A stretch of 64,000 bases of DNA, from contig QCUF01000003.1 of NCBI GenBank assembly GCA_003210825.1, forward strand, positions 1-64,000, read 5' to 3'. Below the pieces are notes generated by a model that had not been told where the DNA came from, made no database searches, and worked only from the letters and a program-made list of their open reading frames with translations. Of the stretch, positions 58,899 through 60,637 are shown in pieces. Position 1 is the first letter of the stretch; every line of letters starts with the position of its first letter. The stretch comes from Prochlorococcus sp. AG-676-P15-1 (GTDB taxonomy: Bacteria; Cyanobacteriota; Cyanobacteriia; PCC-6307; Cyanobiaceae). Position numbers and translations under genes: made by a program.

Positions 58899-59263
58899 AC
58901 GAAAGCATATTCATATTCTTCAATCTCTTCCCAATCATCTGCAGTAAGTTCTAAACCTTCAAATATTTTTTCTTCACCAATTCCCTCAACTACGACTTTT
59001 AGAGATGGAAATAGAAAATGATTTTCTTCAGCATATTGGGCGCTAAATAAACCTTTTTCACCCCAAAAAAACCTATCAGTAGTATGTTCATTTCTTCGAA
59101 CATTGAAAACTGAAGGTGCAGACAAAGCATTTTCAGCTATAAATCTTCTTGCAGCTGTAACTGGTTTATGTTTGCCGGTTTCGATATGATAAATAGGTAC
59201 ATGTGCCATTACTCTTTGGCCCGCCAACCTTCTTCTGCTGATTCTTTTTCTCTTTTTTGACAT
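58895..59263 (-). CDS. DUF3155-like cyanobacterial protein
   Basis: 122 aa; SKKRKRISRRRLAGQRVMAHVP; family from recall. Confidence 0.7.
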   Translation of the reverse strand: MSKKRKRISRRRLAGQRVMAHVPIYHIETGKHKPVTAARRFIAENALSAPSVFNVRRNEHTTDRFFWGEKGLFSAQYAEENHFLFPSLKVVVEGIGEEKIFEGLELTADDWEEIEEYEYAFV

Positions 59264-59353
59264 TGATTGGGACTCCTAAAATTATTAATGAGATTAGCCT
59301 TATTTATTTTTACTAATCTTATATCTGTGATTTTGAATTCACTTAAATTACAT

Positions 59354-59431
59354 AGAGGACCCATCAACCCCTGATGTAGCATAAAATATGATTAGATGTT
59401 CATATTTAAGGCTGGCTAAAGTCAGACCTCT
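59354..59431 (+). ncRNA. Candidate structured RNA (cloverleaf-like) upstream of the histidine kinase
   Basis: Outer stem AGAGG/CCTCT enclosing CATCA-acccc-TGATG, AAATATG-N10-CATATTT and CTGGC-taaa-GTCAG; GC-elevated against an AT-rich gap. Confidence 0.45.
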
Positions 59432-59500
59432 TTATATATCTTAATACTTTTTTCATATTTTACAAGTCCTTTCTCAGATTTTTTTAAAATTTCACTAATT

Positions 59501-60637
59501 ATGAAGCTCTCAAAAAAATTTGAAGAACTAATCATAAAACAGCTAGAGAGTTTTGGTTGCTCAATGGGAGTGACTCATTTGGTTATGTATCTTGCTTCAA
59601 CTGAGCAAGGAACTAAAGCATCTTTTGAAATGATTGGTCAATGGCCACAAATTGATAGGCTCTTAGTATCAGTAGAAGATGATCCTTCACTAAAAGTTTC
59701 TTCTCCAAATAGAAGATGGTACCCGCTTCAAGAAAACGATATCCTTCTTGGTGTGCTTAGGGTAGAAACTGATTTGAAAGGGGGGAATTGGCCAACATCT
59801 CTTGACTCTAGATTAAAAGCACTTTCACTATCTTTAGCTAAATGCGTTTCTATCGAATTAGAACGTCAAAATAAAAATGAAGAAATTAATTATTTAAAAA
59901 ATCAGGTCAATGTCATAATCCATCAATTGAGGAATCCATTGGCTGCTCTTAGGACGTATGCAAAATTACTAATAAAAAGACTTGGTTCAGATGATGATTC
60001 TATTGAAATAGTCGAACGGATGATAATAGAGCAAAAACAAATTAATAATTACATGGACTCTTTTGCGCAATTAAATTCACCTATTCAACTTCCTATAGAA
60101 ATTGGAGAGGAAAGATTATTATTACCACCAAATTTAGATAATAAAAAGTTGATAACTGTTCAGAGTTTATTGAGACCAATTTTAGAAAGGGGTAAGGCTA
60201 ATGCTAACTTAGAGAATAGAGATTGGACTGAACCTTCTCTTTGGCCAGATTGGACTTTATCGCCATTAAAGGCTAAATATGCTGTAATTGCTGAAATTGT
60301 GGCCAATTTATTAGAAAATGCATTTAAATACGCCCAAAAAGATGCTGATATTGGACTCACCATTATGAGTAAAGGTCTGTGCATATTTGATGATGGTAAA
60401 AAAATAACCAAAATTGAAAATGAGAAAATTTTTCAAAAAGGCTTTAGAGGATCTGCTGCTAAGAAGAAAGATGGCACTGGTGTTGGACTTTTTTTAGCGA
60501 GGAAATTAGCAAAACAAATTGGAGGAGAGTTGAGATTGCTTGAAAACTCCTCAATTAATGATATTAAGGAATTAAAAAACCTTAAGAAGAAAAATATTTT
60601 CTATTTAGAACTTCCTATAAAAGAATTGCATTCATAA
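59501..60637 (+). CDS. Two-component sensor histidine kinase (soluble, possibly Hik2-like)
   Basis: H-box VIIHQLRNPLAALRTYAKLL, N-box ANLLENAFKYA, G-box DGTGVGLFLARKLAKQIGG. Confidence 0.85.
   Translation: MKLSKKFEELIIKQLESFGCSMGVTHLVMYLASTEQGTKASFEMIGQWPQIDRLLVSVEDDPSLKVSSPNRRWYPLQENDILLGVLRVETDLKGGNWPTSLDSRLKALSLSLAKCVSIELERQNKNEEINYLKNQVNVIIHQLRNPLAALRTYAKLLIKRLGSDDDSIEIVERMIIEQKQINNYMDSFAQLNSPIQLPIEIGEERLLLPPNLDNKKLITVQSLLRPILERGKANANLENRDWTEPSLWPDWTLSPLKAKYAVIAEIVANLLENAFKYAQKDADIGLTIMSKGLCIFDDGKKITKIENEKIFQKGFRGSAAKKKDGTGVGLFLARKLAKQIGGELRLLENSSINDIKELKNLKKKNIFYLELPIKELHS

Follow-up and report, generated by a model that had tools for sequence, protein, structure and literature searches.

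Between a DUF3155 protein gene and a divergently oriented sensor histidine kinase gene in Prochlorococcus sp. AG-676-P15-1 lie 237 bases, and within them a compact block of hairpins (59354-59431) raises the question of which strand is read across it and which of the two neighbouring genes it serves. Positions are those of the window, the whole 64,000-nucleotide stretch of contig QCUF01000003.1 that was analysed. Here, we report that the block is a conserved, structured, unannotated non-tRNA element, and that it is likely to be the 5'-terminal part of a minus-strand leader of the DUF3155 mRNA, judging by its promoter context.

The hairpin block and its distribution

A sequence-only reading had described the block as a cloverleaf-like RNA candidate, and folding bore out its description. 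All of the proposed stems are present: AGAGG (59354-59358) pairs with CCTCT (59427-59431) and closes over CATCA/TGATG, AAATATG/CATATTT and CTGGC/GTCAG, the last with one G-U pair, and this cloverleaf is the RNAfold MFE structure of the plus strand (-19.2 kcal/mol). The observation that the block is GC-rich in an AT-rich gap was likewise correct (39.7% G+C in the block vs 23% and 17% in its flanks), and the opinion that it is not a tRNA agrees with ARAGORN and Rfam, which find neither tRNA nor tmRNA. The fold itself is only mildly unusual, since the block folds better than shuffled sequence by a modest margin (z -1.94; 8 of 200 dinucleotide-shuffled sequences are as stable), and the minus strand is equally stable (-20.6, z -1.74). 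It is conservation, and not the folding score, that makes the block more than a chance arrangement. The region is 97% identical to that of MED4, a member of the same genus. When 116 distinct intergenic sequences from this genus are compared, conservation amounts to 96-99% over the block and over the adjoining 35 bases towards the kinase. The AGAGG/CCTCT helix has a rival in a longer local hairpin, P1, which pairs on the minus strand of the window's clade as UACAU-C-AGGGG / CCUCU-AUGUA. P1 is the hairpin common to relatives, and the true element therefore begins five bases outside 59354-59431 (Table 1). A further hairpin, AGATTAG..CTAATCT (59281-59312), lies between the element and the DUF3155 Shine-Dalgarno sequence and is conserved in the genus.

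Table 1. Features of the DUF3155-kinase locus in window coordinates
Feature	Position	Strand	Basis or remark
DUF3155 protein gene, 122 aa	58895..59263	-	PF11352, E 5e-45
DUF3155 ribosome-binding site and start (AGGAGTCCCAATCAATG)	59246..59277	-	Complementary to P1 arm in the window's genus
Proposed DUF3155 mRNA 5' leader, ~168 nt	59264..59431	-	Predicted from promoter motif and DUF3155 start codon
P1 hairpin with conserved GCTACA arm	59349..59380	-	Covariance model R1 match, 16 bits, E 5e-4 in 5 kb
P2-position hairpin AAATATG/CATATTT	59384..59407	-	Positional equivalent of family P2 hairpin
P3-position hairpin GGCTGGC/GTCAGACC	59410..59428	unassigned	Conserved in genus
Promoter-like motif for DUF3155	59438..59465	-	Family-wide conservation; start predicted
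Divergent soluble sensor histidine kinase, probably Hik2/CSK orthologue	59501..60637	+	HisKA and HATPase_c; assignment probable

We aligned 48 relatives (A2), derived from them a covariance model of the P2-P1 core (R1) and used it to follow the distribution of the element. At E <= 0.001 the model found the element in 113 of 151 Cyanobiaceae genomes, representing 28 of the 34 genera, with exactly one copy in each of the 113 and always at the DUF3155-kinase locus. The window's own genus was missed by the strict filters of this genome scan; it carries the element by motif, synteny and direct R1 search, in which relatives score like the window (16 bits). A scan of 60 genomes across the class gave two matches, both within Cyanobiaceae and none in other cyanobacteria, and no phage or plasmid homologues were found. 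The core kept in other genera of the family reads, on the plus strand, P1 5' arm, about nine loop bases, CCTCTGCTGTAGC and GGTTGCA/TGCAACC (P2), followed by a variable hairpin region (P3), ATCTTAA[GT]ACTTTTTC and, in many relatives, ATTTTTCAAG. Departures from this plan occur: four loci of genus g52 (L177, L178, L179, L197) hold the conserved core CCTCTGCTGT[AG]GCTTTGG..GACAC..GTGCAA twice in tandem, while genus g32 has lost the hairpins and shows, by eye, a promoter-like motif near DUF3155 in the region beyond the kinase start, similar to the motif described below and in keeping with a DUF3155 leader. In several genera (e.g. L223, L226, L245, L246, L293) a second conserved block, ~ACG(T)TTGGGCGT, sits in the DUF3155 leader roughly halfway from the element to the start codon.

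The covariation in relatives that had been put forward as a check on the structure is present in P2 and scarce elsewhere. P2 has 201 Watson-Crick cells vs 181.6 in shuffles, a value reached by 0 of 1000 shuffles, and five of its seven pairs in A2 carry two-sided changes; for P1 and P2 jointly, 30 cells of A2 are changed on both sides vs 15.1 when shuffled (0/500). Such an excess is support rather than proof, because related sequences can beat shuffles without structure. One arm of P1 is nearly invariant throughout the family (GCTACAGCAGAGG on the minus strand) and P1 covaries little, just as the stems within the genus, about 99% paired but nearly invariant over the 116 intergenic regions, leave little room for covariation. 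The P3 region differs among clades, and its gaps masked most of the structure when RNAalifold was applied to the whole 170-column alignment. We thus regard P2 as supported, P1 as plausible and P3 as clade-specific. The locus could also be thought to act at the DNA level only, as a divergent promoter with transcription-factor sites whose hairpins are incidental or serve as operator dyads. Sequence is indeed conserved more strongly than pairing, and the mean MFE z-score in relatives is no better than about -1.1 for either strand, but the compensatory changes in P2 exceed those of all shuffles, and the core lies downstream of the predicted transcription start (see below), so that an operator-only account needs many extra sites. 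Control by DNA sites only is accordingly an unlikely explanation.

Strand assignment and the flanking promoter motif

Pairing does not decide the strand. Folding energies of the plus and minus strands do not differ among 72 relatives, and wobble counts across relatives are mixed. Within the genus, two sites point in opposite directions: 59415/59422 in the CTGGC/GTCAG hairpin (H3) is G-U on the plus strand in 106 of 116 sequences, while 59356/59370 is A-C on the plus strand and G-U on the minus strand in 102 of 116. The earlier argument for a plus-strand RNA from the single G-U pair is therefore offset by the second site. Nor does synteny alone give a verdict on the gene that owns the element, because DUF3155 and the kinase are adjacent in every genome checked; none of those examined had the two separated.

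More telling is the conservation that flanks the element. On the kinase side it continues for about 28 bases past the hairpins and reads, on the minus strand, as TTGNNA-N16-TAAGAT, and most positions of this conserved stretch carry 1.3-1.9 bits of information. The TAAGAT -10 is exact in 67 of 72 relatives and is preceded, at a spacing of 16 bases, by a -35-like hexamer with consensus TTGAAA. The window has a -35-like TTGTAA (59465-59460), a 16-base spacer and a -10-like TAAGAT (59443-59438); it agrees with the consensus at just 8 of 12 positions, and the motif is consequently absent from a plain promoter scan. On the DUF3155 side, by contrast, almost no information remains immediately upstream of P1 in the plus-strand sense, and plus-strand -10-like motifs upstream of the element are, family-wide, no commoner than at control positions.

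These observations bear on the proposal, made from the sequence, of a plus-strand sRNA or structured kinase leader, whose transcription would start near 59350 and be terminated or attenuated at the CTGGC/GTCAG hairpin and the TCTTTAT behind it. The cloverleaf is the plus-strand MFE, H3 keeps its G-U pair on that strand, a terminator-like site was returned at 59412-59425 (plus) in a motif scan, and a -10-like hexamer, TAAATT, can be seen by eye at 59344-59349. Yet the sequence upstream on the plus strand is unconserved across the family, the strongest flanking conservation reads as a minus-strand promoter, the inner P1 site is A-C on the plus strand in most of the genus and the terminator hairpin is clade-specific. 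A conserved, structured, non-tRNA element was correctly recognised; its assignment to a plus-strand sRNA or kinase leader was not supported, as the conserved promoter motif that adjoins the element is on the minus strand and -10-like motifs are not enriched on the plus, and we consider a plus-strand transcript distinctly unlikely.

Three other candidates were set aside. A minus-strand ORF of 16 aa from 59456 (MKKVLRYIKRSDFSQP) loses its ATG among LL relatives and among the divergent genus members; extending the kinase at its N-terminus through ATCTTAATACTTTTTT is at odds with a spacer to the kinase ATG that varies by single bases, such that the frame is not conserved; and a terminator GGTCGAT..ATC..GACT lacks its partner in the window's clade.

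From the position of the promoter motif, the DUF3155 mRNA is predicted to start at ~59431 (plus or minus 2), which would give a leader of 168 bases, the block making up its first 78. The order on the minus strand is promoter motif, element and DUF3155 start codon, where the motif is a match and the start a prediction. In genus g79 (L146-L154) a strong hairpin with a T run (AGCTCTGGCTGAGGCTAGAGGCTTTTTTTT in L146) lies between the DUF3155 start and the element; it reads as a plus-strand terminator within the DUF3155 leader region and perhaps stops antisense transcription. In other cyanobacterial families (L256-L285) DUF3155 is often head-to-head with the same kinase too, and outside Cyanobiaceae it has a short leader containing a short GTAAC/GTTAC hairpin and a different conserved promoter-like sequence, seen by eye as TTGAAA, ~17 bases, TATACT.

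Possible control of DUF3155 translation by the putative leader

A minus-strand leader of DUF3155 remains the preferred reading, and we favour it, with somewhat less assurance, when some regulatory role of that leader is included along with strand and gene. Transcription would proceed on the minus strand from a sigma-70-type promoter at 59438-59465 and begin with the first A of AGAGG on that strand (~59431), and the leader would fold as P3, P2 and P1 before ending at the DUF3155 Shine-Dalgarno sequence. It could control DUF3155 translation by making the ribosome-binding site inaccessible or accessible. In the window's genus one arm of P1, GGUUGAUGGGUCCUCU, can pair with AGGAGUNCCAAUCAAUG at the start site of DUF3155; the duplex of this arm with the Shine-Dalgarno sequence and start codon (AGGAGUCCCAAUCAAUG) has an energy of about -16 kcal/mol, and z averages -2.8 for 26 distinct sequence pairs, which come from members of one genus that are not independent. 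This complementarity is confined to that genus and absent in other clades. There, folding of P1 and pairing of its arm with the ribosome-binding site may be the two states of an ON/OFF switch.

In most relatives outside the window's genus the Shine-Dalgarno sequence is itself held in a short hairpin (CTCC..GGAG), which is weak in the window's genus; with a stem >= 4 it is found in 89% of the other leaders vs 39% of shuffles. Intrinsic terminators within the relatives' leaders were not above chance, and none was conserved. The Shine-Dalgarno hairpins and the lack of a conserved terminator point to translation as the regulated step. The sequences show conservation, a promoter motif at fixed spacing, a single copy in constant synteny, covariation of P2 and complementarity to the ribosome-binding site; strand and start site are probably as described here, and the leader probably controls translation, by a mechanism that is hypothetical. 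A true translational switch, given a minus-strand DUF3155 leader, is a tentative proposal to which we give somewhat less than an even chance, and autoregulation, in which the DUF3155 protein would act on its own leader, may serve as a first guess for the signal.

Transcription from the same start could alternatively release the leader as a 5'-UTR-derived sRNA acting in trans through the invariant GCUACAGCAGAGG arm. One arm of P1 is almost invariant in sequence, as is typical of a seed region, but no conserved intrinsic terminator follows the element and it is not among Yfr1-Yfr21 or Yfr28; such an sRNA seems very improbable. DUF3155 is present in 145 of 146 genomes of the class. The protein is small, its N-terminus (KKRKRISRRR) is strongly basic, and no solved structure related to it by sequence was found. 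The kinase has an orthologue in all 121 family genomes and scores far below the cutoff of a SasA-length model. Hik2 is one of three kinases present in all cyanobacteria (PMC4751278). In two genomes of genus g34 (G069, G152; loci L160, L054) the match to the kinase orthologue contains one in-frame TGA.

Relation to known RNAs

The suggestion that the block might be one of the Yfr RNAs of Prochlorococcus finds no support at the corresponding MED4 locus (~258,690-258,784), where none of Yfr1-Yfr21 is listed (PMC2518516, PMC1242208), and Yfr28 lies elsewhere, between ftsQ and ftsZ. Rfam placed Yfr10 at 346661-346738 in MED4 and 6S RNA over the position of Yfr7, which agrees with the same lists. 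A search of the block against Rfam gave no match among 4227 families, and neither the window nor 20 diverse relatives matched Rfam or known aptamer families. The glutamine-II riboswitch (RF01704) and the Cyano-1 RNA (RF01701), both picocyanobacterial, are detected by Rfam in MED4 without a match at the present locus. The Yfr sRNAs (Yfr1-Yfr21, Yfr28, Yfr103) are likewise short structured RNAs of picocyanobacterial intergenic regions, but the strand and context of the present element suggest an mRNA leader, and unlike Yfr103, which is multi-copy in LL strains and Synechococcus, it is single-copy.

Structured mRNA leaders that control translation are a general class, exemplified by the autoregulatory leaders of ribosomal-protein genes. 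Like these, the present element is a putative structured 5' leader before a small basic protein, with a Shine-Dalgarno sequence in or near a hairpin; it differs from them in sequence and in that the function of DUF3155 is unassigned, and any ligand or feedback is hypothetical. Judged by its motif and synteny, and in part by covariation, it is best regarded as a new candidate among such leaders. That it represents a single-copy cis-regulatory RNA class of most picocyanobacteria, a ligand- or protein-bound switch on DUF3155, with DUF3155 and the redox kinase Hik2, encoded head-to-head, forming an unrecognised regulatory module, is a more speculative and rather doubtful extension.

Regulatory proteins are few in Prochlorococcus and marine Synechococcus. 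DUF3155 is conserved in essentially all cyanobacteria yet unstudied, with a mention in one paper of the literature searched. RNA-seq of MED4 has revealed long 5' UTRs without a known Rfam element (PMC3898218), and the element at this locus is a specific, family-wide candidate for such unrecognised elements, for which a leader of DUF3155 predicts an exact strand, start site and set of stems.
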